Assembly: GCA_025933775.1 (NCBI GenBank)
Contig: JAICZH010000017.1
Span: 1 to 43,197 of the forward strand
DNA: 43,197 nucleotides
Direction: 5' to 3'
DNA from: Chitinophagaceae bacterium
Lineage (GTDB): Bacteria > Bacteroidota > Bacteroidia > Chitinophagales > Chitinophagaceae
Part shown: piece by piece, positions 168 to 42,595 of the stretch
How positions within the stretch are numbered: the first letter of the stretch is position 1
Layout of the letters: every line of letters starts with the position of its first letter
Notes under the pieces: model-generated
The model's database searches: none
What the model was told of the DNA's origin: nothing
Seen by the model: the letters and a program-made list of their open reading frames with translations, nothing else
Position numbers and translations under genes: made by a program

Positions 168-2612
168 ATGCAGGTTTTAAAATTTGGAGGCTCGTCCGTA
201 GCCGATGCAAAAAATATAAATAAAGTTGTTGCTATTATTCAGCAGGCTGTAAAAAATAATGCTGATACTATTATCATTATTTCTGCTCTTGGTGGCGTTA
301 CCGATGCTTTACTTGAAGCGGCGTCTCTTGCATCTGATGGCGATATTTTGTATAAAGAAAAATTACATGAAATTGAACGCCGGCATCTTACGGTTGTAAA
401 AGAATTAATTCCGCTCGACCAACAAAGCAGCGTGTTGAGCATGGTAAAAAAACGTTGTAATGAAATAGAAGATATATGCAACGGTGTTTTTTTATTAAAA
501 GAATTATCTGTACGCATTAAAGATGCCATTATCAGTTATGGCGAATTAATATCTTCACAAATTATAGCGGCAAAATTAAAATCAATCGGCATCAGCAACA
601 CGTGGAAAGACGCACGGGAACTGATTCTTACCAATTCTGATTTTGGAAATGCTGCTGTTGATTTTATTGTAACAAATAAAATGATACAAGATTTTTTTTC
701 TAATGCTAATGCAAATGTTTTTATTATGCCCGGTTTTACCGGCAAAGAAAAAAGCGGATACACTACCACGTTAGGAAGAGGTGGCTCTGATTATACTGCC
801 GCTATCATTGGTGCAGCGCTTAATGCTTCTGTTGTTGAAATATGGACCGACGTTTCGGGCCTGATGACCGCTGATCCCAGATTGGTAACAAATGCAAAGA
901 TCATTCAACATATTTCTTACCAGGAAGCGATGGAGCTTTCACACTTTGGCGCAAAGGTTATTTATCCGCCAACTATTCAGCCATTAATGAATAAAAAAAT
1001 TCCTGTTTGTATAAAAAATACTTTTGCTCCTTCTGATTCCGGCACATGGATTCGCAATGAAAGCAAACTAACGGGGAGGGCTATACGCGGAATTTCAAGC
1101 ATCAATAAAATTTCGTTGTTAAGTCTTGAAGGTACTGGAATGGTGGGCATTCCGGGGTTTTCAAAAAGATTGTTTGAAGCCTTATCCAATGAAAAAATAA
1201 ATGTAATTCTCATTACACAAAGTTCATCAGAACATTCTATTTGTGTAGGAATAGAGCAGGCAAATGCAGCAAGAGCAAAAGAAGTAATTGATGAAACATT
1301 TGCACATGAAATAGAAATAAAAAAAGTAGAACCATTGTTTGTTGAAAATGGTTTGGCAATTGTTGCACTTGTTGGTGATAATATGAAAAATCATCCGGGC
1401 ATCAGTGGAAAAATGTTTGGAGCATTGGGAAGAAACGGTGTAAATGTAAGAGCCATCGCACAAGGTTCTTCAGAAAGAAATATTTCTGCAGTGATTTCGG
1501 TAAATGATGTAAAAAAAGCAATCAATGTATTGCATGAAGAATTTTTTGAAACGGCTTATAAGCAAATAAATCTTTTCATAAGCGGCACCGGAAATGTAGG
1601 AAGTAAGTTACTTGCGCAATTGCAGCAGCAACAAAAGCATTTGCTCAATCACATGCGGCTGAATGTAAGAGTGGCGGCCATTAGTAATAGTCGTAAAATG
1701 TTTTTCAATGATGAAGGAATTAATTTATCACGCTGGAAAGAATTGTTGCAGGATGCAGAAAAAAATGATATAAATAATTTCATTGAAACTATTCAAAAAA
1801 AGAATTTAAGAAATTCTGTTTTTGTAGACATAACCGCTAGCGATGTTATTGCAAATTCCTATCCGCAATATTTGCAAAAAAGTATTTCGGTTGTTGCGTG
1901 TAATAAAGTTGCCTGTTCTTCTTCGTATAATTATTATAAAAAATTAAAAGACCTTGCAAGAGAATACAACGCTTCCTTTTTGTTTGAAACCAATGTTGGC
2001 GCTGGTTTGCCGGTTATCGGCACATTGAACGATTTAATAAGGAGCGGCGATAAAGTAAACAGGATCGAAGCCGTATTAAGCGGCACACTCAATTTTGTTT
2101 TTAATAATTATACAGGTGAAAAAAGTTTTGCAAAGGTTGTAAAGCAAGCGCAAGACGAAGGATATACGGAACCTGATCCACGGCTTGATTTGAGTGGAAC
2201 AGATGTAATGCGCAAGATAATGATACTGGCAAGAGAAACGGGCGCTGAATTAGAAATGGAAGATATCGCCAATGAATCTTTTATGCCCGAAGTGTGCATG
2301 AAAGGAACTGTTGAAAATTTTTATAAAGAAATGGAAAAACATGAAGAACATTTTTTCAACTTAGTTTCAAAAGCAAAAGCCGAAGGAAAAAAATTAAAAT
2401 TTGTTGCAAGGTTTGAAAATAGTAAAGCTTCCGTTGGATTGCAACACATAAATCCGCAACATGATTTTTATCATTTGTATGGAAAAGATAATGCCGTACT
2501 TTTTTATACTAATCGTTATGTGGAGCAACCATTAGTCATAAAAGGAGCAGGCGCAGGCGCTGAAGTTACCGCCTCTGGCGTGTTTGCAGATATTATAAGG
2601 GCTGCAGGATAA
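168..2612 (+). CDS. thrA: bifunctional aspartokinase / homoserine dehydrogenase
   Basis: This is a fused enzyme catalysing aspartate phosphorylation and NAD(P)H-dependent reduction of aspartate semialdehyde to homoserine, the first and third steps to threonine. From the ATG at 168 it has 814 residues, the usual length. The kinase signature KFGGSS lies at about 5-10 and GRGGSDYT at about 202-209. Two ACT regulatory repeats follow (about 320-455; the Gly/Val-rich cores GTGMVGIPG and VALVGDN are visible). The dehydrogenase half starts with the Rossmann motif GTGNVG near 471 and carries NVGAGLPVIGTL and GYTEPDPRLDLSGTDVMRK. A frame extension to an ATG at 108 would encode leader-region sequence and is not used. 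It is the first structural gene of thrABC behind the leader peptide. The gap to thrB is occupied by a palindromic-pair element. Confidence 0.97.
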   Translation: MQVLKFGGSSVADAKNINKVVAIIQQAVKNNADTIIIISALGGVTDALLEAASLASDGDILYKEKLHEIERRHLTVVKELIPLDQQSSVLSMVKKRCNEIEDICNGVFLLKELSVRIKDAIISYGELISSQIIAAKLKSIGISNTWKDARELILTNSDFGNAAVDFIVTNKMIQDFFSNANANVFIMPGFTGKEKSGYTTTLGRGGSDYTAAIIGAALNASVVEIWTDVSGLMTADPRLVTNAKIIQHISYQEAMELSHFGAKVIYPPTIQPLMNKKIPVCIKNTFAPSDSGTWIRNESKLTGRAIRGISSINKISLLSLEGTGMVGIPGFSKRLFEALSNEKINVILITQSSSEHSICVGIEQANAARAKEVIDETFAHEIEIKKVEPLFVENGLAIVALVGDNMKNHPGISGKMFGALGRNGVNVRAIAQGSSERNISAVISVNDVKKAINVLHEEFFETAYKQINLFISGTGNVGSKLLAQLQQQQKHLLNHMRLNVRVAAISNSRKMFFNDEGINLSRWKELLQDAEKNDINNFIETIQKKNLRNSVFVDITASDVIANSYPQYLQKSISVVACNKVACSSSYNYYKKLKDLAREYNASFLFETNVGAGLPVIGTLNDLIRSGDKVNRIEAVLSGTLNFVFNNYTGEKSFAKVVKQAQDEGYTEPDPRLDLSGTDVMRKIMILARETGAELEMEDIANESFMPEVCMKGTVENFYKEMEKHEEHFFNLVSKAKAEGKKLKFVARFENSKASVGLQHINPQHDFYHLYGKDNAVLFYTNRYVEQPLVIKGAGAGAEVTASGVFADIIRAAG

Positions 2613-2614
2613 TA

Positions 2615-2726
2615 TGCCCCTATCCCCTAAAGGGGTATCAATATTTAAAGAATTATACAAATAAAATATGCAGAAACAGGAGCAAAAAGAAAATGTAAGT
2701 AGTTTCCCTTTAGGGGTTAGGGGTGT
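2615..2726 (+). repeat. palindromic-pair element A (thrA-thrB junction)
   Basis: The left arm at 2615-2638 (CCCC-TAAA-GGGG core) and the right arm at 2703-2726 (CCC-TTTA-GGGG followed by TTAGGGG) are inverted copies of each other. The element starts 2 nt after the thrA stop. Its AT-rich core holds the thrB start codon at 2668, and its right arm is translated as the peptide SSFPLGVRG just before the conserved start of homoserine kinase. Here the arm is read in a different frame from that used in nuoB, nuoD, nuoI and pssA. Confidence 0.8.
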
Positions 2727-3633
2727 TACTGTACTTGCGCCGGCAACCATTGCCAATCTTGTTTGCGGCTTTGATGTATTGGGTATGGCATTGCACGATC
2801 CTTATGATGCGATGCAGCTTACATTGAGTGAAAAGCCAGGCATACGTATAATTCATAATGATACGTATAACCTGCCAACAACGCCTGAACAAAATGTTGC
2901 GGGTGTTTCACTTTTAGAATTAATGAAAGAGTTGCCGGATAATTATGGATTTGATTTGATTATTGATAAACATATAAAACCCGGCAGTGGACTGGGTTCC
3001 AGCGCAGCAAGCGCAGCAGGAGTAGTAGTTGCAGCCAATCATTTATTGAATAATATTTTTTCAAAAGAAGATCTAGTGCGTTTTGCAATGGCTGGAGAAA
3101 AACTTGCATCAGGTGTAAAACATGCCGATAATATTTCGCCCGGAATTTATGGCGGCGTTACATTAATACGTTCAATTTTTCCTTTGGATGTAGTTTCGGT
3201 AAATGCGCCGCCAATGTATGTTGCAGTGGTTCATCCCCAGATAGAAGTAAAAACTTCTGATGCAAGAGAAATTTTGCGCAAAGAAGTTTTATTGAAAGAT
3301 GCGATTAAGCAATGGGGAAATATTGCAGGGCTTGTTGCCGGTTTTATGAAAGGCGATTATGGATTAATAAGCCGTTCATTAGAAGATGTAATTATAGAGC
3401 CGGTGCGCAGTATGCTCATTCCCGGCTTTGATGAAGTAAAAACAAAAAGCGTTTATGCGGGAGCGTTAGGTGGCGGCATTTCCGGTTCAGGGCCTTCCAT
3501 TTTTATGTTGTGCGAGAAAGAAAACACAGCATTAAAAGTTGAAAAAATTATGAAAGATGTTTATGATAATACCGGTTTGAAATATCATACGTATGTTACA
3601 ACAATTAATAATGAAGGGATAAAGTTGATTTGA
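2668..3633 (+). CDS. thrB: homoserine kinase
   Basis: GHMP-family kinase phosphorylating homoserine, the fourth step to threonine. The 321 residues carry the GHMP ATP-binding loop PGSGLGSSAASAAG at about 104-117, and a C-terminal SGSGPSIF motif. The family's conserved N-terminus (VTVLAPATIANLVCGFD) begins only at about residue 20. The preceding stretch MQKQEQKENV-SSFPLGVRG has no family counterpart: it is encoded by the core and right arm of the palindromic element, which therefore supplies the start codon. No alternative ATG, GTG or TTG between the arm and the conserved domain is obvious. It lies 55 nt downstream of thrA in the same operon. Confidence 0.96.
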   Translation: MQKQEQKENVSSFPLGVRGVTVLAPATIANLVCGFDVLGMALHDPYDAMQLTLSEKPGIRIIHNDTYNLPTTPEQNVAGVSLLELMKELPDNYGFDLIIDKHIKPGSGLGSSAASAAGVVVAANHLLNNIFSKEDLVRFAMAGEKLASGVKHADNISPGIYGGVTLIRSIFPLDVVSVNAPPMYVAVVHPQIEVKTSDAREILRKEVLLKDAIKQWGNIAGLVAGFMKGDYGLISRSLEDVIIEPVRSMLIPGFDEVKTKSVYAGALGGGISGSGPSIFMLCEKENTALKVEKIMKDVYDNTGLKYHTYVTTINNEGIKLI

Positions 3634-22212: not shown

Positions 22213-22234
22213 TATTTTATTCGATACAAAGAAA

Positions 22235-22621: not shown

Positions 22622-22626
22622 AACTA

Positions 22627-24024
22627 TTAACTTAATGATTGTATATAATCATAAATCCAGCTTAACATTCCTGCCAATATAATGCCGGCAGAACAAATGA
22701 TCAATGCAAATTTAGTTGATGGATGAATATTTATTTTTTCTAAAGGGTTTTCATTTTTATCCATAAACATTGATCGTATTACTTTTAAATAATAATACAA
22801 CGATACAATCATATTTAACGCAGCAAAAAGAATAAATCCATAATTAGCATTAGATGCGCCCGCGTTTAATAAAAATAATTTACCAAAAAAACCGGCAAGC
22901 GGCGGAATGCCGGCCAAAGAAAATAAAGCCAGCGCCATTACCCAGCACAATACCGGATTGGTTTTATACAAATTTTTATAATCGTCAATTTTTTCTTTTC
23001 CTGTTTGTGATGAAATGGCCGCCGCAACGCCAAATGCAGCAAGGTTGGATAAAATATAAATTAAAATAAAATAAACAACCGAAGATGTTCCCTGCTGAGA
23101 ATTACCCGAAACGCCCACTAAAATAAAACCCATTTGCGCAATAGATGAAAAAGCAAGAAAGCGTTTTATGTTTTGTTGTCGCAATGCAAAAAGATTTCCA
23201 ACAATCATCGTTATGATTGATAAAAGCATAATTATATTATACCAAACTTCATGCATTGGCTGAAATACTTTATACAACACCGAAATAAAAACAAATGCAA
23301 CACCTCCTTTTGAAATTACTGATAAAAAAGAAGTGGCTGCAATTGGGGAACCTTCATACACATCTGCCGTCCATAAATGAAAAGGAACGATGGATAACTT
23401 AAATGCGAATGCAGTTATTACAAATACCAAAGCAAGTATTTGTAAAAAATTTCCGTTGAGCTGTGCGGGAAGTTCAGTAAAATTGATAGTGCCGGTGGCG
23501 CCATAAATTAAAGAAATGCCAAACAAAAAAATACCCGAAGAAAAAGCTGACGATAAGATCATTTTCATAGCAGCTTCTGAAGATATTTTTTTTTCAAGAT
23601 CAAAATTACTCATCGCCGCCAGTGGAATAGTTGCCAGTTCAAGCGATAAAAAAAACATCAAAAAATTGCCGCTCGAAATAAGGAAATCCAGTCCCAGCAA
23701 GGAAGACAGCATCAATAAAAAAAATTCAGACAAATGTTCGGTATTCATAAACCAATCAGCAAATAATAAAGAAATAAGATACACGCCAAAATTCAAAATG
23801 CATTTTTGAAATGCAATTAATTCATCGGTATGATACATGCCATCGAAAAGAATACCCGATGTATTGAAAAAAAATGCCGCCAAAAAATTTAACAACAACA
23901 AAACCTGAATAATTAATAAAAGCAAATCATTTTTTATTGTGCCGCTCAATTTTATAAACAGCAATATAAAAATGATAACTGTTATCATCAACTCAGGTTT
24001 CATCAATATAAAAAATTCATTCAT
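22627..24024 (-). CDS. nuoN: NADH-quinone oxidoreductase subunit N
   Basis: 465 residues, about fourteen transmembrane helices, one of three antiporter-like proton-pumping subunits of complex I. Signatures: FFLSLELATIPLAAMSNF (essential Glu), AFKLSIVPFHLWTADVYEGSP (conserved Lys and loop), and FLAFSSIAQMGFILVG. It lies 10 nt after nuoM, the last nuo gene. Confidence 0.96.
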   Translation of the reverse strand: MNEFFILMKPELMITVIIFILLFIKLSGTIKNDLLLLIIQVLLLLNFLAAFFFNTSGILFDGMYHTDELIAFQKCILNFGVYLISLLFADWFMNTEHLSEFFLLMLSSLLGLDFLISSGNFLMFFLSLELATIPLAAMSNFDLEKKISSEAAMKMILSSAFSSGIFLFGISLIYGATGTINFTELPAQLNGNFLQILALVFVITAFAFKLSIVPFHLWTADVYEGSPIAATSFLSVISKGGVAFVFISVLYKVFQPMHEVWYNIIMLLSIITMIVGNLFALRQQNIKRFLAFSSIAQMGFILVGVSGNSQQGTSSVVYFILIYILSNLAAFGVAAAISSQTGKEKIDDYKNLYKTNPVLCWVMALALFSLAGIPPLAGFFGKLFLLNAGASNANYGFILFAALNMIVSLYYYLKVIRSMFMDKNENPLEKINIHPSTKFALIICSAGIILAGMLSWIYDYIQSLS

Positions 24025-24034
24025 TCAAATTATT

Positions 24035-25516
24035 TTAATGCGGCATTGATAATTTCTGCATAATAATTTCTGCGCCGGGCTTTATTAAATCATTTATCCA
24101 AAAAGGCGCAATGCCAATAGCTAATATTCCTGTTACCAAAATAATTGCCGCTAATTTTTCATTCCACCTGGCATCTTTTAAATTCAAATAACTTTCTTTA
24201 ATTGGTCCCATGGCCGTTTTGCTGATGGCGCGTAAAATATATACTGCAGTTACTACAATGCTCATACATGCTAAAACAGTTGCAAAGCGATGAAAAAAAT
24301 CAGGATGTTCCCAACCGCCCATAAACACAGTTACTTCAGCCACAAAACCACTGAGGCCGGGTAATCCCAACGAACAGAATCCCACAATAAAAAATACCGT
24401 TGTAATAAATGGCATTACTTTCAGCAAGCCGCCCATTTCATTTATTTGCCTGGTGTGGGTGCGTTCATAAATCATTCCTATCACTGCAAAAAAAAGAGCT
24501 GTCATTACGCCATGACTTACCATTTGAATTACTGCGCCCGTTATGGCAGTTTGGGTTAACATACCAATGCCAAATAAAACAAAACCCACATGACTGATGG
24601 AAGAATAAGCATTCATGTATTTAAGATCTTTCTGCATCATAGTTGCGAACGCTCCATATAAAATGGCAATCGTTGACAGCACGATAATTATATTCGCATA
24701 TTCTTTTGCAGCAATGGGCATAAGGTACACGGCTACGCGCAAACAGCCATAACCCCCTAACTTCATAGATATACCGGCTAAAAACATAGAACCTGCTGTG
24801 GGCGCGGATGAATGCCCATCGGGAACCCATGTATGAAAAGGAAATAGAGCAGTGAATACGCCAAAACCTACAAACAATAATGGAAAACAAATGCGTTGTA
24901 TATAAACCGGAATTTCTGATTGAGATAATTCTATTAAATCGAAAGTTCTTTGCGAATTACTAAAATATAATCCAAGCATCCCTACCAAAACCAATGCAGA
25001 AGCGCCCATAAGCATTAGCGCTAATTTATTAGCAGCATATTCTTTTTTGCCGCTTCCCCAAATTCCGATTAATAAATATTTTGGGATCACTGCAATTTCC
25101 AAAAAGAAAAATAAAACAAAAAGATTAAGTGATAGAAAAAAACCATAAGCTCCAAAACTTAAAATCATTAGCATGAAATAAAATTCTTTTGTCATCTTTT
25201 CTGTGTTCCAGGAAACAAGCACACCAGCAATAACAACAAATGCAGTTAATAAAATCATGGCAATAGAAATACCGTCGACGCCCAAATGAAAGCTGATGTG
25301 CCATGAAGGAAACCATTCATATTTTTGTTGAAATAAAAATGAATCTGTATTACCGGATGCAATTTCATTTTTATAAACAAATAATAATATAAATGCTAAA
25401 ACAAGCTGAAAAGTGGCTCCGGACAAAGCGATCCATTTTACCTGTTGTTTCTTTTGCACCAACAAAACAGCAATGGAAGTAAGCAACGGAACGAGTATGA
25501 GCCAGAGTAAATTCAT
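24035..25516 (-). CDS. nuoM: NADH-quinone oxidoreductase subunit M
   Basis: 493 residues, about fourteen helices, antiporter-like proton-pumping subunit. Key motifs: FFFLEIAVIPKYLLIGIWG (conserved Glu), FPFHTWVPDGHSSAPTAGSMFLAGISMKLGGYG (conserved loop and Lys), and KYMNAYSSISHVGFVLFGIG. An ATG start after AT-rich DNA. The preceding gap to the nuoL stop (25517-25632) is not empty: it encodes the missing C-terminus of nuoL in the -1 frame. Confidence 0.96.
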   Translation of the reverse strand: MNLLWLILVPLLTSIAVLLVQKKQQVKWIALSGATFQLVLAFILLFVYKNEIASGNTDSFLFQQKYEWFPSWHISFHLGVDGISIAMILLTAFVVIAGVLVSWNTEKMTKEFYFMLMILSFGAYGFFLSLNLFVLFFFLEIAVIPKYLLIGIWGSGKKEYAANKLALMLMGASALVLVGMLGLYFSNSQRTFDLIELSQSEIPVYIQRICFPLLFVGFGVFTALFPFHTWVPDGHSSAPTAGSMFLAGISMKLGGYGCLRVAVYLMPIAAKEYANIIIVLSTIAILYGAFATMMQKDLKYMNAYSSISHVGFVLFGIGMLTQTAITGAVIQMVSHGVMTALFFAVIGMIYERTHTRQINEMGGLLKVMPFITTVFFIVGFCSLGLPGLSGFVAEVTVFMGGWEHPDFFHRFATVLACMSIVVTAVYILRAISKTAMGPIKESYLNLKDARWNEKLAAIILVTGILAIGIAPFWINDLIKPGAEIIMQKLSMPH

Positions 25517-25537
25517 TAAATGTTTTAAATTAAAATT

Positions 25538-25642
25538 TTATTTCCACCAATAAATAAATAAAACTGCCATTGCCAGCGCTGCTATTAAAAAGTAAACTGC
25601 ATACTGCTGCACTTTTCCAGATTGAATTCCTTTTATTTTTTT
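25538..25642 (-). other. C-terminal end of NuoL in the -1 frame
   Basis: Starting from the A7 run at 25636-25642, the -1 frame reads IKGIQSGKVQQYAVYF, then LIAALAMAVLFIYWWK and stop at 25538. This is the normal end of NuoL, a GKVQQYA motif plus a last transmembrane helix of about 20 residues. The annotated frame instead stops at TAA immediately after the A7 run. A single missing A (mutation or sequencing error) or slippage on A7 would explain it. Confidence 0.85.
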
Positions 25643-27477
25643 GAAATAAACTGAGCGCTATTGCCCGTACCATCTATTAATCCATCCACTATATGTTTAT
25701 CAAACCACGCTGAAGGTTTTGCTACCAAATTGAATAATATTTTTTTGGTAACAAATAAATATATTTCATCAAAATAAAATTTATTTGATGCCGCATTATA
25801 TAATCCTTGAATAGATGCTGCAATTTTATTAGGTGCATCATTTTGCTTTTTATACAACTTCATAGCAATGAAAATTCCTATCAATGCAAACGCAACAGGA
25901 ATAATAGAAAGTTGCAAATGAAATTTGCTTTCTAAAATTTTTCCATCGGAAGTAATAAAATTTCCAAAGGGAATAAAACCTGCAGTGGCTGTGCCGATGG
26001 CTAATAATATTAATGGAAATATCATTGCAAAACCACCATCAACCCTATACTCACGGTGTAGCATACCCGAAAATTCTTTATTCCAAAAAATAGCAAAGTA
26101 CAATCGAAACATATAAAAAGCAGTAAGTCCCGATGTAAATAAACCAATCCAATAAACAACGATGTTGTTTTGATAAGCGGCTAATAAAATTTCTTCTTTA
26201 CTAAAAAACCCTGAAAACGGCGGTATGCCTGCAATTGCGAGGCATGCAATTAAAAAAGTAATATGCGTTACCGGCAAAATTTTTCGCAAGCCGCCCATAT
26301 CTTTCATTTCATTGCTGTGAATAAAATGAATAACGGAACCGGCGCATAAAAATAATAATGCTTTAAACATTGCATGTGTAAACAAATGAAACATCGAAGC
26401 GGTATAACCCAATCCGTTTTCACCACCATATTTCGAAACGCCTAATGCAAACATCATATAACCTATTTGCGAAATGGTAGAAAATGCGAGCACTCTTTTA
26501 ATATCAGTTTGTGTACACGCAATCATTGCGGCCAACAATGCGGAGATGGCTCCCACATAAGCGATCAACACTAAAGCATCCTGCGCTGATGATGCATAAA
26601 CAGGAAATAATCTTGCAACTAAAAAAACACCAGCCACCACCATTGTTGCAGCGTGTATTAATGCAGATACAGGTGTGGGGCCTTCCATTGCATCAGGCAA
26701 CCAGATTTGTAATGGAAACATAGCGCTCTTTCCTGCTGCGCCGATAAATACCAAAATCATTGCCCACGTTAATGCAGAAACACCCATGAATGATGAAGCA
26801 AGAGCAGCCTGTAATTCCGGAGAAGCTGCGGTTGTTAATCTTTCAATAAGTGTATTAAAATCTAATGTTCCGGAATAAAATGAAAGCATCAGAATACCAA
26901 TTAAAAATCCAAGATCGGCAAAGCGTGTTACAATAAATGCTTTTTTGCTAGCCGCAGCAGCGCTGGGTTTATCGTAATAAAATCCAATTAGAAGAAAAGA
27001 AGAAACACCCACGAGTTCCCAAAAAATATATATTTGAAAAATGTTAGAAGAAATTACCAAAGCCAGCATAGAAAAAGTAAACAGCCCTAAAAAAGAATAG
27101 TAAGTAGCGAATCGTTCTTCATCTTTCATGTATGCCAAACTGTAAATATGCACCATTAATGAAATAAAAGTGATTACCACAAGCATCATACACGTAATGG
27201 GATCGAGCAATACCCCCATATCAATAGAAAGGCTTTCAGAGAATTGCAGCCAGGTATATTTTAATGGAATTAATTTTTCATAAATGCCATTTATTTTTCC
27301 GTATTCAAAAAAATAACCGTAAGCAATATAGATTGCTAAAATGGTTGAAGCCAACAATAATATAGTTGCAATAATACCGGAAGCATTCTTAAAATATTTT
27401 TTTCCAAACAAGCCCATTATTAAAAATGATGCGAGAGGCAACAACGGAATTAAAACTATGAAAGTTGTATTAAGCAT
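25633..27477 (-). CDS. nuoL: NADH-quinone oxidoreductase subunit L (frameshifted at its 3' end)
   Basis: 614 residues in frame. The largest antiporter-like subunit of complex I, with about fifteen helices. Conserved: FWELVGVSSFLLIGFYYDKPSA (Glu), FPLQIWLPDAMEGPTPVSALIHAATMVVAGVFLVARLFP, and LAFSTISQIGYMMFALG. The frame closes at TAA right after an A7 run (25636-25642). The following 32 codons in the -1 frame encode the expected last helix. The in-frame product therefore lacks its terminal membrane helix unless slippage occurs. It begins after a 9-nt tandem spacer following nuoK. Confidence 0.95.
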   Translation of the reverse strand: MLNTTFIVLIPLLPLASFLIMGLFGKKYFKNASGIIATILLLASTILAIYIAYGYFFEYGKINGIYEKLIPLKYTWLQFSESLSIDMGVLLDPITCMMLVVITFISLMVHIYSLAYMKDEERFATYYSFLGLFTFSMLALVISSNIFQIYIFWELVGVSSFLLIGFYYDKPSAAAASKKAFIVTRFADLGFLIGILMLSFYSGTLDFNTLIERLTTAASPELQAALASSFMGVSALTWAMILVFIGAAGKSAMFPLQIWLPDAMEGPTPVSALIHAATMVVAGVFLVARLFPVYASSAQDALVLIAYVGAISALLAAMIACTQTDIKRVLAFSTISQIGYMMFALGVSKYGGENGLGYTASMFHLFTHAMFKALLFLCAGSVIHFIHSNEMKDMGGLRKILPVTHITFLIACLAIAGIPPFSGFFSKEEILLAAYQNNIVVYWIGLFTSGLTAFYMFRLYFAIFWNKEFSGMLHREYRVDGGFAMIFPLILLAIGTATAGFIPFGNFITSDGKILESKFHLQLSIIPVAFALIGIFIAMKLYKKQNDAPNKIAASIQGLYNAASNKFYFDEIYLFVTKKILFNLVAKPSAWFDKHIVDGLIDGTGNSAQFISKK

Positions 27478-27500
27478 TCAGTGGCAGTTGGGTTTTGATG

Positions 27501-27535
27501 GTTTAGTGGTTTAGAAAGTTTAGAAAGTTTAGAAT
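27501..27535. repeat. 9-nt tandem-word spacer between nuoK and nuoL
   Basis: On the plus strand, GTTTAGTG then GTTTAGAAA twice and GTTTAGAAT (27501-27535), directly abutting the nuoK stop at 27536 and ending 24 nt before the nuoL start at 27477. On the transcript it reads as TAAACTTTC words. It is comparable in placement to the spacers before thrC and rsmI. Confidence 0.65.
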
Positions 27536-27850
27536 TCAATATTTCAATTCTTCCGCTACATCCACATCAATTGAATGATGAGTTCTGTATAAATTAATAA
27601 TGATTGCAATAGCAACTGCTGCTTCTGCAGCGGCTATCGCAATTATAAAAATGGTAAAAAATAATCCGGTCAGTTTATCGGGCCACAAATATTTATTGAA
27701 TGCGATAAAATTTAAATTCACACTATTTAAAATTAATTCTACGCTCATTAAAATAGTTATTAAATTTCTTCTTATAAAAAAACCATACATGCCAATAAAA
27801 AAAAGGGCAGTGCTGATAAATAAAATATGATATAGTCCGGGCTGCATCAT
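27536..27850 (-). CDS. nuoK: NADH-quinone oxidoreductase subunit K
   Basis: 104 residues, three transmembrane helices. The two membrane glutamates of the proton path are present, in LMSVELILNSVNLNF and AAAEAAVAIAII. The start overlaps the end of nuoJ (ATGA, 4 nt). The stop is followed at once by a tandem-word spacer leading to nuoL. Confidence 0.96.
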   Translation of the reverse strand: MMQPGLYHILFISTALFFIGMYGFFIRRNLITILMSVELILNSVNLNFIAFNKYLWPDKLTGLFFTIFIIAIAAAEAAVAIAIIINLYRTHHSIDVDVAEELKY

Positions 27851-28404
27851 GTTGTTTCAGATTTAAGTTTGTTAGTTGGGGGTTCTCCCTTTTTGAGGAA
27901 GTTTGAGGGGGCCGCAATTACAATGCATCCTACTAAAGCAGCGAGCAATAACATGCTTACCACTTCTAACGGTAACGCATACCCGCTTTTATTTATTCCC
28001 ACCATTTCATTACCGATATTTTCAATCCCCGGCTGTATTGCAGTATTTATAGTACTTTGAAACGAATGTTGCATAATTTGAATCATAATTAAAACAAAGC
28101 CGCAAAATGCAGCCAAGGATGAAAATATTTTCCTGTTCATTTTTTGTTTTGGCATTTTTTCTCCTGCCTGCTGGGTTAAAAAAATAGAGAAGATAATTAA
28201 AACAGTAATACCGCCAACATACACTACTATTTGCACAGCAGCAATAAACTCATACTGCATCCAGAAAAATAAACCAGCCACGCCTATTAAAGAAAATAAT
28301 AAAAATACTGCGGCTCTGAATATCTGGCGGGTACTTACAGCAAGCATTCCACTTATCAATGTGAGCAAAGCCAGCATGTAAAATATAATTGTTGACCCAA
28401 TCAT
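27847..28404 (-). CDS. nuoJ: NADH-quinone oxidoreductase subunit J
   Basis: 185 residues, about five helices. Conserved features: FLLFSLIGVAGLFFWMQYEFIAAVQIVVYVGGITVLIIFSIFLT and the YALPLEVVSMLLLAALVGCIVIA helix. Overlaps nuoI by 1 nt (TAATG) and nuoK by 4 nt. On the opposite strand of its YALPLEV codons lies a chance-looking match to the R3 repeat (27966-27985). Confidence 0.96.
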   Translation of the reverse strand: MIGSTIIFYMLALLTLISGMLAVSTRQIFRAAVFLLFSLIGVAGLFFWMQYEFIAAVQIVVYVGGITVLIIFSIFLTQQAGEKMPKQKMNRKIFSSLAAFCGFVLIMIQIMQHSFQSTINTAIQPGIENIGNEMVGINKSGYALPLEVVSMLLLAALVGCIVIAAPSNFLKKGEPPTNKLKSETT

Positions 28405-28925
28405 TATTCTATTCCCTCCATAATTTTAGAACCGGGATTGTTTAATATTTTGGTTAATTGACTACGATCAAAAACACTGTGCTCAAATGTTTGCGCCATT
28501 ACAATCGCATCAGAAGGACAGGCGGTAATACATAAATTACACATGGTGCAGAGTTCCAAATGATATACTAATTTATCAATTGCTTTTTTCTTTTTTCCAT
28601 CGGGAGTTATATCAAACTTAGTAATTACTTTGATAGTTCCATTGGGGCACGCAAGTTCACAAGCCGTGCATCCGGTACAACGATGTTCATTGTTTTCATT
28701 ATGCGGCATCACCACTTCACCTTTAAATCTTTCAGGCAGATTCAAGGTTTCCCTATTATCAGGATATTGTTGTGTAATGATTTCTTTGTGATGTGTAAAA
28801 TAATATCCTGTTCGTCTCAATCCAACAAACAATGATTTTACAGCATTGAAAACTTCTTTAAAATAAGCCCCTAACCCCGAAGGGGAAACTGTGGAGTTAT
28901 TTAATTTTTTTGAAGTGTTGCTCAT
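28404..28925 (-). CDS. nuoI: NADH-quinone oxidoreductase subunit I (with element-derived N-terminus)
   Basis: 173 residues from the ATG at 28925; a TTG at 28955 would add ten residues. It carries the two [4Fe-4S] ferredoxin motifs: CTGCTACELACP (about residues 80-91) and CTMCNLCITACP (about 126-137). The first roughly 20 residues (MSNTSKKLNNSTV-SPSGLGA) come from the palindromic element at 28865-29018, where the right arm is translated. The rest of the protein is normal. NuoB starts with a very similar element-derived stretch (MSETSND...PPSG). The iron-sulphur electron relay toward NuoB is intact. Confidence 0.95.
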   Translation of the reverse strand: MSNTSKKLNNSTVSPSGLGAYFKEVFNAVKSLFVGLRRTGYYFTHHKEIITQQYPDNRETLNLPERFKGEVVMPHNENNEHRCTGCTACELACPNGTIKVITKFDITPDGKKKKAIDKLVYHLELCTMCNLCITACPSDAIVMAQTFEHSVFDRSQLTKILNNPGSKIMEGIE

Positions 28926-29018
28926 TATTGAAAATATTTCTTTATTAGCTTTCAAAAATCTTCCCTTGTAACTTCAACTGTCAAGGCTTGCTTTTCTCCC
29001 CTTCGGGGTTGGGGGCTT
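28865..29018 (-). repeat. palindromic-pair element F (nuoH-nuoI junction)
   Basis: The upstream arm 28992-29018 touches the nuoH stop codon, and the downstream arm 28865-28890 lies inside nuoI. Both contain CCCCTTCGGGG followed by TTGGGGGCTT or TTAGGGGCTT, inverted to each other, so they could pair over about 25 bp. The core contains the nuoI ATG and an extra small CCTTG...CAAGG hairpin absent from other copies. It is the longest copy. Confidence 0.8.
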
Positions 29019-30095
29019 TTAAAAATACCATCCTGCAATTGCCATTGCTGTTACCAATAAAATATTAAACAAACTGATTGGCAACAAATATTTCCATTCA
29101 AGATTTAATAACTGATCAATCCGCAATCTCGGGAAAGTCCATCTGAACCACATGATCACGAATATTAAAAAAAATGTTTTTCCAAAAAACCATAAACTTG
29201 AAGGAATAAAATCCATTACATGATTAAATGATTGCCAATGACCAATATGAAAAGGCATCCATCCGCCAAAAAATAAAGTAGCGCCAATAGCACATACAAT
29301 AAAAACATTCACATATTCTGCTAAAAAAAACAAAGCGAATTTCATTCCCGAATATTCGGTATGAAACCCGGCTGTTAATTCTGATTCCGCTTCAGCCAAA
29401 TCAAAAGGGGCACGATTAGTTTCTGCAGTTACTGCAATTATAAAAATGATAAAAGAAATAATTACGGGAATATGTCCTTTAAAAATCCACCAGCCATCAG
29501 CCTGAGATTGAATAATGGTATTTAAATTTAAACTTCCTGCAAGCACTACTACCGAAAGTATAGAAAGCCCTGCAGACAATTCATAGCTTACAATCTGCGC
29601 CCCGCTTCGCATAGCGCCCATTAAAGAATATTTATTATTACTCGACCATCCTGCTATTAAAATACTTATTACAGAAACGGATGAGATAGCAGATATATAT
29701 AACACGCCAATGTTTACATTCCACATCTGGAAATTTTTTGCAAAGGCCAGCGGCGCCATTAATAACATGGCCACTACAAGTGCAATAAAAGGAGCCAGGT
29801 TAAATAAAAATTTATCTGCGCCGGATGGAGTCATTCCTTCTTTCACTAACAATTTCATGGTGTCCGCAACTGACTGAAACATTCCTTTTGGCCCAACCCT
29901 GTTTGGCCCCATTCGAATTTGTATCCATGCCGAAACTTTTCTTTCCATAAGAACTAATACTAATCCTAAAACTGCAAATAAACTTATTACACAAATACCG
30001 GCAATTATCATTTCAAAAATAACAGCAACAGATGGATGGAATGTTTCATTCAACCATTGATGAATAGAATCGGCTATGTTGCTAAAGCTCCACAT
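29019..30095 (-). CDS. nuoH: NADH-quinone oxidoreductase subunit H
   Basis: 358 residues, about eight transmembrane helices, forming the quinone-entry part of complex I. Typical motifs: LMERKVSAWIQIRMGPNRVGPKG, LFNLAPFIALV, AETNRAPFDLAEAESELTAGFHTEYSGMKFALFFLAEY, and FLRWTFPRLRIDQL-like WFRWTFPRLRIDQLLNLEWK. Its ATG lies 6 nt beyond an element arm. Unlike nuoB, nuoD and nuoI, it has no element-derived N-terminus. It directly follows nuoD: nuoE, nuoF and nuoG are absent. Confidence 0.96.
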   Translation of the reverse strand: MWSFSNIADSIHQWLNETFHPSVAVIFEMIIAGICVISLFAVLGLVLVLMERKVSAWIQIRMGPNRVGPKGMFQSVADTMKLLVKEGMTPSGADKFLFNLAPFIALVVAMLLMAPLAFAKNFQMWNVNIGVLYISAISSVSVISILIAGWSSNNKYSLMGAMRSGAQIVSYELSAGLSILSVVVLAGSLNLNTIIQSQADGWWIFKGHIPVIISFIIFIIAVTAETNRAPFDLAEAESELTAGFHTEYSGMKFALFFLAEYVNVFIVCAIGATLFFGGWMPFHIGHWQSFNHVMDFIPSSLWFFGKTFFLIFVIMWFRWTFPRLRIDQLLNLEWKYLLPISLFNILLVTAMAIAGWYF

Positions 30096-30100
30096 TGGTT

Positions 30101-30231
30101 GGCCTCACCTCAACCCCTCTCCGATGGAGAGGGAACTGAACGGGGGTGGTTTATAAATTTAATGTTTAAATAAAAATTCATTCATGGTTTAATATTACTT
30201 TTGTTCTCCCCTTCGGGGAGTTAGAGGGGCT
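30101..30231 (-). repeat. palindromic-pair element E (nuoD-nuoH junction), atypical
   Basis: The upstream arm 30203-30231 (CTCCCC-TTCG-GGGGAG core, 1 nt from the nuoD stop) and the downstream arm 30101-30141 (CCTCTCC-GAT-GGAGAGG core with CCTCACC flank) are of different subtypes. The core has an ATG but the reading frame closes after eight codons (MNEFLFKH), and the element ends 5 nt before the nuoH ATG. It occupies the site where nuoEFG lie in 14-gene operons. Confidence 0.75.
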
Positions 30232-30232
30232 G

Positions 30233-31387
30233 CTACCTGTCAATATCCGGTATTACTAAATCCAACGTTCCCATCATTGCTATCAGATCTCCCAATTTAC
30301 TGCCTCTCGCCATATGATCGAGTGCAGAAAGATTAGAAAAACCCGGCGAACGAAACTTAATCCTGTAGGGTGTTGTGCCGCCTTCACTCACAATAAAAAC
30401 ACCTAATTCTCCTCTTGCTGTTTCCACTCTTGAATAAAATTCTCCTTTTGGTAATTTTAAAACCACTTTAGTTTTTGCCTGAAAATCTCCTTCAGGAATA
30501 TTATCAATTAATTGTTCAATAATTTTTATAGATTCATTCATTTCTTTAATGCGGACCATATATCGTGCAAAAGAATCGCCACCGTTTTCTATCACTTCAT
30601 TAAATGATATTTTATCATACACTTCATACGGATATAATTTACGAATGTCGCAACTTAGGCCGCTGCCTCTTGCCGTGGGGCCGCTGCATCCGTAAGATAT
30701 TGCATCTTCAGCAGATAAATAGCCAACATTTTTCATACGATTTTGAAAAATAATATTGCCCGTAATTAATTCATCATATTCTTTAATCTTTAATTTATAT
30801 AAACTAATAAATTCTTTTACTCTTTTTTGAAAGTTGGGATGAATGTCGGCCATCAATCCGCCGGGAACAAAATAATTCATAGTGAGCCTTGCGCCGCAGG
30901 TTTCTTCCATAATATCATTGATGGTTTCTCTTTCTCTGAATGCATGAAAAAAAGGTGTGAATGCGCCAACATCCATTGCCAAAGCGCCCCACCACAATTC
31001 ATGCGAAGCAATTCGTGTAAGCTCATCAAGCAATACTCTTACCACTTGTGCTCTGTGTGGAATTTCTAATTGCAATCCTTTTTCAACGCACAATGCACAA
31101 GCATGGTTGTTGATGTGTGCAGAAAGATAATCCATGCGGCTGGTAACATAAATAAACTGGCGATAGGTAAGGCTTTCGCACATTTTTTCAATGGAACGAT
31201 GAATGTATCCTAAATGCGGCTCTACTTTTTTTATCGTTTCTCCATTTAATGTAATTACTAAATGCAGCACACCATGCGTAGCCGGATGCTGTGGTCCTAC
31301 ATTGATGATTAAATCACCAGCCTCCCCAAACCCTCCAGGGGAGGGGCTTTCGGAATCGTCGCTTATTATTTCAGTTTGTCTATACAT
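30233..31387 (-). CDS. nuoD: NADH-quinone oxidoreductase subunit D (with element-derived N-terminus)
   Basis: 384 residues. Homolog of [NiFe] hydrogenase large subunit, forming the quinone-binding cavity with NuoB and NuoH. The conserved start INVGPQHPATHGVLH is preceded by a foreign stretch (MYRQTEIISDD-SESPSPGGFGEAGD) encoded by the palindromic element at 31319-31428. Other family motifs: HRSIEKMCESLTYRQFIYVTSRMDYLS, TAR-GSGLSCDIRK and the C-terminal MGTLDLVIPDIDR. The catalytic core appears complete. Confidence 0.96.
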   Translation of the reverse strand: MYRQTEIISDDSESPSPGGFGEAGDLIINVGPQHPATHGVLHLVITLNGETIKKVEPHLGYIHRSIEKMCESLTYRQFIYVTSRMDYLSAHINNHACALCVEKGLQLEIPHRAQVVRVLLDELTRIASHELWWGALAMDVGAFTPFFHAFRERETINDIMEETCGARLTMNYFVPGGLMADIHPNFQKRVKEFISLYKLKIKEYDELITGNIIFQNRMKNVGYLSAEDAISYGCSGPTARGSGLSCDIRKLYPYEVYDKISFNEVIENGGDSFARYMVRIKEMNESIKIIEQLIDNIPEGDFQAKTKVVLKLPKGEFYSRVETARGELGVFIVSEGGTTPYRIKFRSPGFSNLSALDHMARGSKLGDLIAMMGTLDLVIPDIDR

Positions 31388-31428
31388 AGTTTAATGCTCC
31401 TGCCTTTCCCCTTCAGGGTTACGGGCCT
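31319..31428 (-). repeat. palindromic-pair element D (nuoC-nuoD junction)
   Basis: The upstream arm 31402-31428 (CCCCTTCAGGG) abuts the nuoC stop. The downstream arm 31319-31350 (CCCCTCCCC-TGGA-GGG...GGGGAGGCT in coding sense) lies inside nuoD. The two arms are of different subtypes. The core holds the nuoD ATG preceded by ATTAAACT, a sequence shared with the ATTAAACC-ATG of element E. Confidence 0.75.
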
Positions 31429-31884
31429 TTATAATCTTATCATATTTACCGGATCTTCAAAATCTTTCAGCAAAGGTTTTTTCCCTTCCCAACCATCTGG
31501 CAAAATGAGCAATCGTAAATCAGGATGATTAATAAAATTCACCCCAAACATTTCATACACTTCTCTTTCATGAAATTCTGCTGTCTTCCATATTTTACTC
31601 GCTGTTTCTATTTCGGGATGATTGCGGTCAAGTTTAGATTTTACAACAATGTTATAACGGTAACGCGTAGACGATAAATGATACACCATGGTAAGATGCG
31701 TTTTCCAATCAATACAGGTAAGGCAAAAAAGGTAATTGAAAAATAAAGAATCATCATTGCGCAATTGCTGTGCAAATGCTGGCCAGTCCTTTGCTTCCAC
31801 GTTTACGGTAAGCCATTCGCCTTCTTCAAAAGTTGCTGAAGGAAGTAATTCCGTTATTTTATTTTTTAAATCTTCCTTCTCCAT
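31429..31884 (-). CDS. nuoC: NADH-quinone oxidoreductase subunit C
   Basis: 151 residues, the 30-kDa subunit fold. C-terminal signature HEREVYEMFGVNFINHPDLRLLILPDGWEGKKPLLKDF is complete. Not fused to NuoD, unlike in enterobacteria. The ATG overlaps the nuoB stop by 1 nt. There is no element between nuoB and nuoC, consistent with the lack of a gap there. Confidence 0.96.
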   Translation of the reverse strand: MEKEDLKNKITELLPSATFEEGEWLTVNVEAKDWPAFAQQLRNDDSLFFNYLFCLTCIDWKTHLTMVYHLSSTRYRYNIVVKSKLDRNHPEIETASKIWKTAEFHEREVYEMFGVNFINHPDLRLLILPDGWEGKKPLLKDFEDPVNMIRL

Positions 31885-32447
31885 TAATCTTTGCTCGTTT
31901 TTATTTGTTCCCTGGTAAGCCCGCTTTTTATTTTTTGTTGCAAACTAATTAATGCATGTAGCAATGCTTCCGGCCTTGGCGGACAGCCTGCCACATACAC
32001 ATCTACCGGTATTACATGATCGGCGCCTTTTACAACCGAATAAGTATTGTAAAAAAAAGGACCGCCGCTAATGGCGCAGGCGCCCATTGCAATTACATAC
32101 TTAGGATCGGCCATCTGATCGTACAATCTTTTTAAAACCGGAGCCATTTTATTTACAATGGTTCCTGCAATAATTATTACATCGGCCTGGCGTGGCGAGG
32201 CTCTTGCCACTTCAAAACCAAATCGAGAAAAATCATACTTGGCAGATGCAACCGACATCATTTCAATACCACAGCAGCTTGTAGCAAATGTGAGGGGCCA
32301 CAATGAATTGGAACGCGCCCAATTAATTATATCATCGAGTTTGCTCAATACAATTCCGCCACCGGGTGTTTCAATAACCTTAACAGCCCCCTCCGCCCCC
32401 GAAGGGGGAACCTGAGAAGTCTCTACATCATTTGAAGTTTCACTCAT
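31884..32447 (-). CDS. nuoB: NADH-quinone oxidoreductase subunit B (with element-derived N-terminus)
   Basis: 187 residues. Carries cluster N2, with the tandem Cys in [12 protein letters not shown], Cys in [10 protein letters not shown] and Cys in [14 protein letters not shown]. The conserved domain begins at [10 protein letters not shown]. The preceding [21 protein letters not shown] is encoded by the palindromic element at 32385-32500, its right arm being read in frame. There is no other start between the arm and the conserved part. Confidence 0.96.
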
Positions 32448-32500
32448 TATTTAAACATTAAATATTACAATCTTCTTCTCCCCTTCGGGGTCGGGGGCTT
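32385..32500 (-). repeat. palindromic-pair element C (nuoA-nuoB junction)
   Basis: The upstream arm 32473-32500 is 1 nt from the nuoA stop, and the downstream arm 32385-32419 lies inside nuoB. Both have a CCCC-TTCG-GGGG core and ends AAGCCCCC/GGGGGCT, and inner GAGAAG/CTTCTC also match. The core contains TTTAATGTTTAAATAATGAG, where the second ATG starts nuoB. The reverse complement of a 17-nt part of this core is found in element E. Confidence 0.8.
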
Positions 32501-32501
32501 T

Positions 32502-32852
32502 TTATTTCCATTTCAAAGCTCCTTTTTTATGTGCATATAAAAATCCCATAAATAATATAAAAAAGAAAATAACAATTTCAATCAATGCCGTCCATCCTGC
32601 ATGTTTGGCAACTACCGCCCATGGATATAGAAATATAAGCTCTACATCAAATATTAAAAATATCAATGCAAACAAGTAATAGCCTACGTTTAGTTGTTTC
32701 CATGTTTTGCCATGCGTGGGAATGCCGCATTCATAAGGCTCTCCTTTTTGCAAATTGGTAGTAGCTTTTGTTACCATTTTAGCAACAAGAATAGCAACGG
32801 AAGAAAATACGATTGCAGCTATTATCAAAACAATCATTGAAGAAGGGCCCAT
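32502..32852 (-). CDS. nuoA: NADH-quinone oxidoreductase subunit A
   Basis: 116 residues, three transmembrane helices, with the conserved YECGIPTHGKTWKQLNVGYYLFALIFLIFDVELIFLYPWAV including the membrane Glu/Asp pair. First gene of the minus-strand nuo operon. No TAnnTTTG box was found in its 5' region, so the promoter is unassigned. Confidence 0.96.
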   Translation of the reverse strand: MGPSSMIVLIIAAIVFSSVAILVAKMVTKATTNLQKGEPYECGIPTHGKTWKQLNVGYYLFALIFLIFDVELIFLYPWAVVAKHAGWTALIEIVIFFFILFMGFLYAHKKGALKWK

Positions 32853-33288
32853 AAAAAAATTTCAAATTGATTTATTAAATTATTTTACAAATGAAAGGTA
32901 ATAAATTATGTTATGCGATTTTTATTTATCCGATGATTTTAACCTTGCATCTTTTATTAGTTTGCCGCGGGAGATTAATTTTGTGAAAAATATTTACCTT
33001 ATAACGGTGGCGCATACCCGAAGATTATCAGGGTACTTTTAAAAAATATAATGAACCCTTGAATAAAAAAAAAACAATGCTGCATTCTAAAATGGTAGCA
33101 GTGAAATATTGAAGATGATGTGTTGTAATAGGATGATGAAGTACTTAAGTCAATTACTACTTTAAAATAAATTTTTTATTTAATTTTTCAAAACATTCGG
33201 GAATGCTTATTCAGAATTTCGCAAATGATGTGATTATCATTTCTTATCAGCAAGGTTTTATGAAGAATTTATAATTTATATTTACCTT
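32853..33288. other. divergent intergenic region between nuoA and the methyltransferase gene
   Basis: No gene supported in these 436 nt. Contains an R3 repeat at 33001-33026 with an adjacent weak inverted pair (TACCC/GGGTA, 33015-33036). A TATATTTA motif about 10 nt before the methyltransferase ATG is a near-match to the -7 box. The nuo promoter could not be located with confidence. Confidence 0.55.
33001..33026 (+). repeat. R3 repeat, copy 3
   Basis: ATAACGGTGGCGCATACCCG followed by AAGATT resembles copies at 13689-13714 and 14405-14430 (shared TAACGGT, GC-AC-CGAA positions). It lies at the left border of the methyltransferase and toxin-antitoxin region. Confidence 0.5.
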
Positions 33289-41362: not shown

Positions 41363-41483
41363 AAGCCCACCTAAATCCTCCCGAAGGGAGGACTTAAAAA
41401 TCCTTTTTAAATAATAGCTTTATTACATGATTGAAAAATCCAATTTTAAGAAAAGTTTTTTCTCCCCTTCGGGGCTGGGGGCT
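41363..41483 (+). repeat. palindromic-pair element B (pepP-pssA junction), best-preserved copy
   Basis: The left arm 41363-41395 runs from AAGCCC to GGACTT with a TCCTCCC-GAA-GGGAGGA stem. The right arm 41453-41483 runs from AAGTTT through CTCCCC-TTCG-GGGG to GGGGGCT. The left arm starts at the base after the pepP TAA. The AT-rich core carries the pssA ATG at 41427. The right arm is read as the peptide SFFSPSGLGAA. The outer AAGCCC and inner GACTT/AAGT ends define the arm boundaries. Confidence 0.85.
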
Positions 41484-42248
41484 GCTATCCCAAACATTTT
41501 CACACTCCTCAATCTCTTCTTCGGTTGCATGGCAATTGTATTTGCTTTGCAAACCAATGCCGTAATCATTTATTTAAATGATGAATTTAACAGCAGCTTC
41601 AATATCCCTGAAAAGCTTACGTGGGCTGCATTTTGTATTATCATTGCTGCAGTCATAGATTTTTTAGATGGCTTTGTTGCGCGGTTGTTAAATGCAACTT
41701 CTGGTATGGGTAAGCAGTTAGATTCATTGAGCGATGTGGTAAGTTTTGGTGTGGCGCCTTCGGTAATTATTTATCAGTTATTGCGGTTTAGTTTTGCAAG
41801 AGAAGAAAACGGATTGAATGTTTCATTGTGGTGTTTAATTCCAGCATTTATTATCAGTTGTGCTGCGGCTTACAGGCTGGCACGTTTTAATTTGGATGAA
41901 TCGCAGGATGTAATTTTTAAAGGTGTACCGGTTCCTGCAGTTGGCTTGCTCGTTGCTTCCTTTCCACTCATTTTACATTTTAATTCTTTCAGCGTTGTAA
42001 ACAATTTTCTTATTAATAAATGGTTTTTGTATGCGCTGATTATTGTATTAAGTTATCTGATGATTTCCAATTTAAAAATGATGTCATTAAAATTTACCGA
42101 CTTTATTTTTAAAAATAATATTTCAAAAATAACTTTGCTGATCATTGCAATTATCACAGCCATTTTTTTACAATGGATTGCTGTGCCGGTTGTATTTATT
42201 TTTTATATTTTATTATCTCTTACAACAGTTAAAATAAAAAGCGAATGA
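41427..42248 (+). CDS. pssA: CDP-diacylglycerol--serine O-phosphatidyltransferase (with element-derived N-terminus)
   Basis: 273 residues. It makes phosphatidylserine, precursor of phosphatidylethanolamine, from CDP-diacylglycerol and serine, in the inner membrane. The CDP-alcohol phosphotransferase motif is complete: DFLDGFVARLLNATSGMGKQLDSLSD (D-G-x2-A-R-x8-G-x3-D-x3-D). Several helices are visible. The family start IPNIFTLLNLFFGC is preceded by MIEKSNFKK-SFFSPSGLGAA, which derives from the palindromic element rather than from the ancestral gene. Overlaps purS by 4 nt (ATGA). Confidence 0.95.
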   Translation: MIEKSNFKKSFFSPSGLGAAIPNIFTLLNLFFGCMAIVFALQTNAVIIYLNDEFNSSFNIPEKLTWAAFCIIIAAVIDFLDGFVARLLNATSGMGKQLDSLSDVVSFGVAPSVIIYQLLRFSFAREENGLNVSLWCLIPAFIISCAAAYRLARFNLDESQDVIFKGVPVPAVGLLVASFPLILHFNSFSVVNNFLINKWFLYALIIVLSYLMISNLKMMSLKFTDFIFKNNISKITLLIIAIITAIFLQWIAVPVVFIFYILLSLTTVKIKSE

Positions 42249-42490: not shown

Positions 42491-42595
42491 TTAGCCAATT
42501 AGCTAATGTGCTAATGATTAGCTTCTGATTTTAAAATATTATTTCATTTTACCTAATTGGCATATTGGCTAATTAGCACATTAGCAAATTAACAA
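42491..42595 (+). repeat. word-repeat spacer with inverted copies, between purS and rsmI
   Basis: Occupies the full gap from the purS stop to the rsmI ATG. Left part: words of TTAGCTAATTAGCC and CTAATGTGCTAAT. Right part: ATTGGCTAATTAGC and ATTAGCACATTAG, which are reverse complements (14- and 13-nt matches). The 10-nt palindrome GCTAATTAGC occurs on both sides. Confidence 0.7.

Follow-up and report, generated by a model that had tools for sequence, protein, structure and literature searches.

Repetitive extragenic palindromic (REP) sequences have been described near the 3′ ends of open reading frames (ORFs) and inside N-termini, some of them supplying stop codons (PMC3733652). In Escherichia coli, stop-proximal REPs are known (PMC12306157), and inverted repeats are enriched just past stop codons and 25-60 bp past start codons (PMC6060812). 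Rickettsia palindromic elements, ~150 bp long, lie in frame in many unrelated protein genes (PMC10969869), and small enterobacterial mobile repeats (the RU family, similar to miniature inverted-repeat transposable elements, MITEs) are non-autonomous and both intergenic and intragenic (PMC2759123, PMC2229807). Here, we analyze palindromic arm pairs in a stretch of 43,197 nucleotides (the window) from a Chitinophagaceae bacterium, contig C183 of a 3.25-Mb draft genome (G000). Six pairs are present in the window, four of them in the nuo operon, and in five the start codon of the downstream gene lies between the arms. These elements are probably insertion-derived, non-autonomous palindromic doublets, REP-doublet or MITE-like in kind, that became fused into gene starts.

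The six elements predicted by an initial annotation of this DNA were all located in the sequence, at the nuo junctions A-B, C-D, D-H and H-I and at thrA-thrB and pepP-pssA. As it had proposed, each of them (6/6) opens with an arm only a few nt past the upstream stop and closes with an inverted arm, the two enclosing an AT-rich core. Read from head to tail, the arm consensus is ~AGCCCC(C)TAA-CCCC-GAA-GGGG-A(G)AA, and variants with a longer stem exist. At nuoA-nuoB, arm 1 (32474..32504, minus strand; R1 29.7 bits, and seen in the sequence) adjoins the nuoA stop (TAA), the core read from the sequence (32414..32473, minus) holds the nuoB ATG at 32447 and a 25-nt start region like that of the nuoI element, and arm 2 (32383..32413, plus; R1 27.8 bits) lies within the nuoB coding sequence as the peptide VPPSGAEG. 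At nuoC-nuoD, arm 1 (31402..31432, minus; R1 22.3 bits) adjoins the nuoC stop, the nuoD ATG is in the core at 31387, and arm 2 (31319..31349, plus; R1 18.9 bits) is coding, with the peptide MYRQTEIISDDSESPSPGGFGEAG. The nuoD-nuoH element has arm 1 (30202..30232, minus; R1 26.1 bits) immediately 3′ of the nuoD stop (TAG) and a non-coding arm 2 (30105..30135, plus; R1 22.8 bits) upstream of the nuoH ATG at 30095. At nuoH-nuoI, arm 1 (28992..29022, minus; R1 29.4 bits) adjoins the nuoH stop and arm 2 (28861..28889, plus; R1 28.5 bits) is read as SPSGLG within nuoI, whose ATG is in the core at 28925. On the other strand, arm 1 of thrA-thrB (2612..2640, plus) adjoins the thrA stop; it was identified in the sequence and included in arm alignment A1, and is not among the 127 genome-wide model matches described below. 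Its arm 2 (2700..2730, minus; R1 23.0 bits) encodes SSFPLGVRG within thrB, with the thrB ATG at 2668 in the core. Finally, pepP-pssA has arm 1 (41365..41395, plus; R1 24.5 bits) next to the upstream stop, the pssA ATG at 41427 in the core, and arm 2 (41458..41488, minus; R1 28.4 bits) within pssA as SPSGLGAA.

By Pfam match, NuoA, B, D, H and I are subunits of complex I, ThrB belongs to the GHMP kinases, PssA is a CDP-alcohol phosphatidyltransferase, and an aminopeptidase P is encoded by the gene before pssA; the remaining gene names are presumed ones, some of them taken from the initial annotation. In the first half of the nuo operon the gapped junctions carry elements (gaps, measured to the ORF start used, of 54 nt at A-B, 41 at C-D, 137 at D-H and 63 at H-I) and the overlapping ones do not (B-C -1, I-J -1, J-K -4), in agreement with the initial annotation. 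In the second half, K-L (58 nt) and L-M (116 nt) are gapped, yet no arm was seen there and no model match was obtained.

The elements had been thought to sit between stop and start, which is true only of nuoD-nuoH, where an in-frame TGA precedes the nuoH ATG; the other five run from the stop into the next gene. In nuoB, nuoD, nuoI, thrB and pssA, the downstream ATG is found between the arms, arm 2 falls within the coding sequence and the open frame continues through it. Judging from these frames, the core ATG would be the one used in the cell and arm 2 would be translated as a new protein beginning. Arm 2 stops just ahead of the conserved segments in the nuo, thr and pss genes, those for which homology was checked. 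Relatives without arms have short native starts, of the MK..VKVLAPA type in ThrB, the MKQIPN type in PssA and the MVEEIGTT type in NuoD. An unfused arrangement was found at nuoC-D of the relative G001: arm 1 comes right after the nuoC stop, followed by ATG TAT AGA CAA ACT..., arm 2 and a stop, and the native ATG of MVEEIGTT lies 6 nt past the element's stop in the same frame. The reading is MYRQTKII...GGRYN*TL, then the intact MVEEIGTT. G000 has a similar start, MYRQT, fused to the NuoD body; its MVEEIGTT start is gone.

Such N-terminal arms extend beyond the window, with 23 of them in 22 genes of G000 (genes were called as long ORFs, without a gene finder, and some of these starts are GTG or TTG). 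Most of the 22 genes show a short start, then a PSG-like or PLxGVRG-like arm peptide, then the apparent first structured segment. Arms are read in at least two frames (SPSGLG, FPLGVRG), and no single element peptide is conserved. One G000 gene, which we take to be HisC-like, contains a single arm in frame that is absent in G016, a relative grouped into the same genus.

A covariance model built from 37 arms, with matches taken at E ≤10 (the E-values are rough), recovered at least 127 arms in the genome, 11 of these in the window, far above the six copies first counted. With 150 of 300 candidates scored, this figure is a minimum. Exact copies of CCCCGAAGGGG number 44 in the genome vs 0 for the backward-read pattern, and a strict arm finder gave 8 arms in the window vs 0 in each of three single-base shuffles. 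The elements are not due to chance. Stop distance and orientation had been singled out for checking by the initial annotation: 34 of 125 arm heads follow, at 2-4 nt, the stop of an open frame of 50 or more codons (~1 expected; 132 of 17,205 random positions), as against 0 of 124 when measured from the tail, two of the 127 arms having been dropped for the head-side count and three for the tail-side count. Within -12 to +8 nt a stop is found for 50/125 heads, 6/124 tails and 5.5% of random positions. A stop also ends 2-4 nt before the head in 8 of 30 arms from G009 and G015 taken together (30 of their 95 and 85 matches).

The 127 arms fall into classes: 46 lie flush behind a stop on their strand, 13 within the final 23 codons of a gene and 23 within the initial 32, 19 are mid-gene, 25 have no called gene and 1 is farther from a stop; the 32- and 23-codon limits were fixed after the data had been seen. 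The mid-gene arms contradict the claim that copies always lie at operon junctions. In all 36 arms of the terminal coding parts (13 C-terminal and 23 N-terminal), the head points into the gene. Neighboring arms within 250 nt converge tail to tail in 19 of 22 cases, with 3 in tandem and none diverging, and in 10 of 20 listed pairs one arm falls in N-terminal coding sequence of the downstream gene. Partners could be assigned to 24 of the 127 arms, several pairs being counted from both sides. The arms of one pair can differ in sub-type, and cores vary in length (33-113 nt) and in sequence. Two further observations concern the surroundings of arms. In four loci (L020, C122:4280; L098, C23:19731; L085, C165:3376; L089, C17:1591) the gene 3′ ends are alike, with ~NPVKSLRTE before the stop; the arms behind them differ in sub-type from gene to gene, and the sequence past the arm is again alike. 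An array of ~8-nt units (TTAGCTAA-like) with seven 35-nt copies in register occupies window positions 42474-42606, and short runs resembling it are also found near arms in L012 and L025.

The same junctions in same-genus relatives contain nothing, similar arms or another repeat family, and the number of arms per genome varies across the genus between 0 and 107 (E 1, with scoring limited to 150 candidates in each genome). No arms were seen at nuoA-B in G002, G008, G012, G016 and G027; nuoC-D is short in G002, G012 and G027, and nuoH-I in G001, G008 and G027. In G015, nuoH-I is filled exactly: the TAG stop takes its G from one arm head, and an ATG directly follows the other. For thrA-thrB, 17 genomes matched and 16 loci were examined, of which 9 were not readable by the anchor motif. 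The element is common to G000 and G016, a short native start is present in G001, G004, G006 and G018, and G008 has no recognizable arm, yet a longer start with unread bases. For pssA, 17 of 18 loci were read (all but G008): the element is present in G000, G009 and G015, decayed in G001, and was not seen in 13. Sequence matching the surroundings of ten arm sites was located in 400 kb of G016, and one site (C10) was not alignable across the arm; the aligned counterparts show absence, replacement or a decayed copy (C34:20954). The occurrence of armed and arm-free junctions, together with copies shared between relatives, points to insertion or loss plus some vertical descent. The initial annotation's view of insertion is upheld in part by the arm-free junctions at nuo, thrA-thrB and pssA, which it had suggested looking for, by the uneven counts and by the non-random placement relative to genes, and not by the thrA-thrB element, which G000 and G016 share by descent.

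How do these doublets compare with the systems already described? Like REPs, REPINs (REP doublets) and bacterial interspersed mosaic elements (BIMEs), they consist of short GC palindromes in high copy, arranged as inverted doublets near ORF 3′ ends. Unlike them, the arms have no GTAG/CGTC tag and no cognate REP-associated tyrosine transposase (RAYT) was found; arms and cores are unlike each other, the spacer is dissimilar among copies (33-113 nt; 1 of 15 window core pairs alike), and one arm reaches downstream N-terminal coding sequence in the 10 of 20 listed pairs mentioned above. The arms resemble Rickettsia palindromic elements in lying in open frames (23 N-terminal, 13 C-terminal, 19 mid-gene), with insertion relative to a relative shown for few, and differ in being more frequent at gene ends than inside, in carrying a start codon where they occur in the window, and in that no one peptide is conserved, even if PSG-like motifs come up repeatedly. 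With RU and other MITE-like repeats they share small size, a non-autonomous nature and both intergenic and intragenic positions, but not a conserved full-length unit, and no target duplication was shown. Stop-adjacent and N-terminal placement by itself is not new because REPs near stops and in N-termini have been described (PMC3733652). The earlier statement that no description was known is too strong in view of these REPs and of the inverted repeats of PMC6060812. In the literature searched, which was partial with subscription papers largely missing, we came across no report of doublets that capture start codons, nor of nuo junctions that serve repeatedly as landing sites.

The model that we favor for the doublets, laid out as head-stem-core-stem-head with the heads outward, starts with their entry into operon junctions beside the upstream stop, a transposition perhaps performed in trans by a Y1-type enzyme. 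Insertion next to a stop would do the least harm. At a tight junction the insertion would end up before the native start, or replace it; an ATG in the AT-rich core could then take over, with arm 2 read through in frame, and the downstream protein would gain an N-terminal extension of roughly 10-25 residues ahead of its first conserved segment. The outcome may be maintained or merely tolerated. In the mRNA the two arms could pair around the start region, and in minimum free energy folding arm 1 does pair with arm 2 in 5/6 elements, with z-scores of -1.0 to -5.8 over the six. Such pairing would, in the folding model, bring the upstream stop and the downstream start close together, with possible translation coupling.

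Several observations weigh against this model. Thirteen of the 23 N-terminal arms have no partner among the model matches. No target-site duplication was seen by eye at the ten sites compared with G016 (C10 not being alignable and the boundaries mostly blurred), no enzyme was linked to the arms, and the parent transposon was not found. In the 15 window core pairs the cores are mostly non-homologous, a poor fit to a mobile unit. The predicted start codon is not reliably open, with base unpaired probabilities of 0.05-1.0; it is largely paired in two elements, and nuoC-D and thrA-thrB are poor in this respect. MYR-type NuoD starts, labeled by text pattern, make up 35 of 86 rows, some without a nearby arm; on a NuoD tree they require 17-19 changes, 2-3 of them forced by starred branches (G008 was left out of this tree as too short, and two genomes are present twice). 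The MYR start may be older than the arms or independent of them. Because it also occurs without arms, it was not used as proof of a moving cassette.

The comparison with REPINs and their RAYTs made by the initial annotation is borne out by the high-copy short palindromes and inverted doublets, and stops at the enzyme, the tag and the dissimilar spacers. One alternative is that these are classical REPINs mobilized by the genome's own RAYT, and G000 does encode a RAYT: a single protein among those scanned lies above the REP-associated transposase cut-off (NF047646, 86.2 bits, cut-off 80). However, this gene, in L003, is flanked by GTTGGTCGGAGACCA at L003:1372-1386 and 1972-1986 and not by arms. 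GTTGGTCGGAGACCA occurs in only 2 of 300 loci, L003 and L008, which overlap at the RAYT gene, and the nearest above-chance arm is 556 nt from it. Base counts over 125 arms gave no GTAG or CGTC tag at the head (G at -1 in 90, A at -2 in 72), and arms within one pair are unlike. A Y1_Tnp match is present in all 20 genus genomes, yet the arm counts vary from none to 107. Bacteroidetes RAYTs of subclass 2.6 are said to have atypical flanking structures that are copied elsewhere in the genome (PMC6006769), which speaks for this explanation. We regard it as quite unlikely, and the RAYT as mobilizer of the arms is unsupported. IS200-like genes offer a lead to a possible arm carrier rather than a link: 3 of 19 Y1 loci of the genus gave 5 weak arm matches (E ≤0.5), and L174:1330-2300 (G011) and L169:1250-1520 (G017) contain, near such a gene, CCCC/GGGG palindromes that share the arms' CCCC-GAA-GGGG stem-loop. 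Among the eight loci whose flanks were read, which include these two, L175 and L123 have related palindromes and L001, L168, L170 and L171 other ones. The arm pairs themselves, like those of a MITE, are terminal inverted repeats without coding capacity of their own. A core common to the elements was sought and not found, nuoA-B/H-I excepted, the only one of the 15 window core pairs to stand out.

Could the arms instead be non-mobile RNA hairpins that act in mRNA stabilization, processing or translation coupling and are kept at gene ends by selection? Their flush position after stops and the arm-arm pairing fit such a role, as does a family survey of nuo junctions (best 80 of 272 loci), in which GC hairpins exceed the means of single-base shuffles at A-B (18/77 loci; shuffled 1.4), C-D (15/79; 0.5), D-H (10/77; 0.9), H-I (9/72; 0.5) and I-J (7/71; 0.3); none was found at B-C (0/78) or J-K (0/68). 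With 7 to 18 of 71 to 79 loci having a GC hairpin, most family members lack one at any given junction, several same-genus relatives have no arms at the very junctions armed in G000, the 19 mid-gene arms do not fit, and no Rfam match was obtained in 22000-33200, all of which makes this explanation unlikely. Intrinsic transcription terminators would also be GC-rich hairpins right past stops, and one sense-strand terminator-like site (28885-28868) overlaps nuoH-I arm 2. They are highly improbable here: the stretch 27000-33000, where four of the six elements lie, gave 6 such sites vs 5.2 expected, none lies on the sense strand at any arm 1, the second arm-overlapping site is on the strand opposite to transcription, and the elements are inside operons and partly coding. 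A more serious, though still doubtful, alternative is that placement reflects survivorship only, random insertions elsewhere having been lost. Insertion into conserved domains would harm, and arm 2 does end just before conserved segments in the nuo, thr and pss genes. Survivorship may account for a large part of the placement. Alone, it would scatter arms across gaps and does not readily give the sharp 2-4 nt peak because the median same-strand gap over 400 kb of G016 is 85 nt, with 35 of 206 at ≤10 nt (sizes that are overestimated, as only ORFs of 100 or more codons were used).

Some comparisons hint at copying within the nuo operon. The nuoA-B and nuoH-I cores of G000 share the 25-nt start region (score 30; best of 1000 shuffles 29). 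The G000 nuoI start region is 23/25 identical to that of G015 nuoB (score 40; best of 1000 shuffles 28) and also resembles that of G001 nuoB (score 29; best of 1000 shuffles 28), while the comparison with G006 nuoB is not significant (117 of 1000 shuffles as good). No further copy at ≤2 mismatches was found in the loci compared. A second repeat, GAACAAGGAATA, is present at nuo junctions of G016, G008, G006 and G001, and its matches fall within the nuo region in 8/8 cases in G016 (5.5 Mb), 5/6 in G008, 8/21 in G006 (the other 13 lying outside) and 2/3 in G001. In G016, all eight model matches at E 0.1 and all five exact 17-mers are in the nuo region, and none was reported elsewhere. This concentration is suggestive only because the copies that went into the model were themselves nuo ones, from G006, G016 and G008, and scoring covered 150 candidates per genome.

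Other cargo is found at these junctions as well. At nuoJ-K of G016 (L155/L292), G006 (L154) and G008 (L162), an open frame of 128-131 codons lies beside GAACAAGGAATA copies, and the G016 protein matches TIGR02436 (four-helix-bundle) and the 23S rRNA intervening-sequence protein (IVP) family PF05635. The second repeat family thus flanks a small gene as in 23S rRNA intervening sequences with IVP; unlike those, the nuo case is in an mRNA operon, and between the CCCC arms of the window no gene of this kind was observed. The nuoJ-K open frame with its GAACAAGGAATA repeats is like a ribosomal intervening sequence placed in an mRNA. G009 nuoH-I (L157) holds a broken GxxExxY-like gene, a 62-aa fragment below the curated cut-off, and G008 nuoL-M (L297) an IS200/IS605 transposase gene with palindromic flanks. 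One may speculate, tentatively, that arms, initiation region and ATG form mobile start-codon cassettes that spread from junction to junction, preferentially within an operon, rewriting N-termini, and that, in this bacterial family, nuo is a place where several unrelated repeat families keep landing.

If the favored model of insertion-derived doublets is correct, short repeats would supply the start codons and first residues of core enzymes, namely complex I subunits, ThrB and PssA. This would represent a testable route to new N-termini and a warning for start-site annotation in Bacteroidota. The junctions without arms, with unfused elements and with fused ones would then form a natural set for measuring the effect of an intercistronic palindrome on translation.

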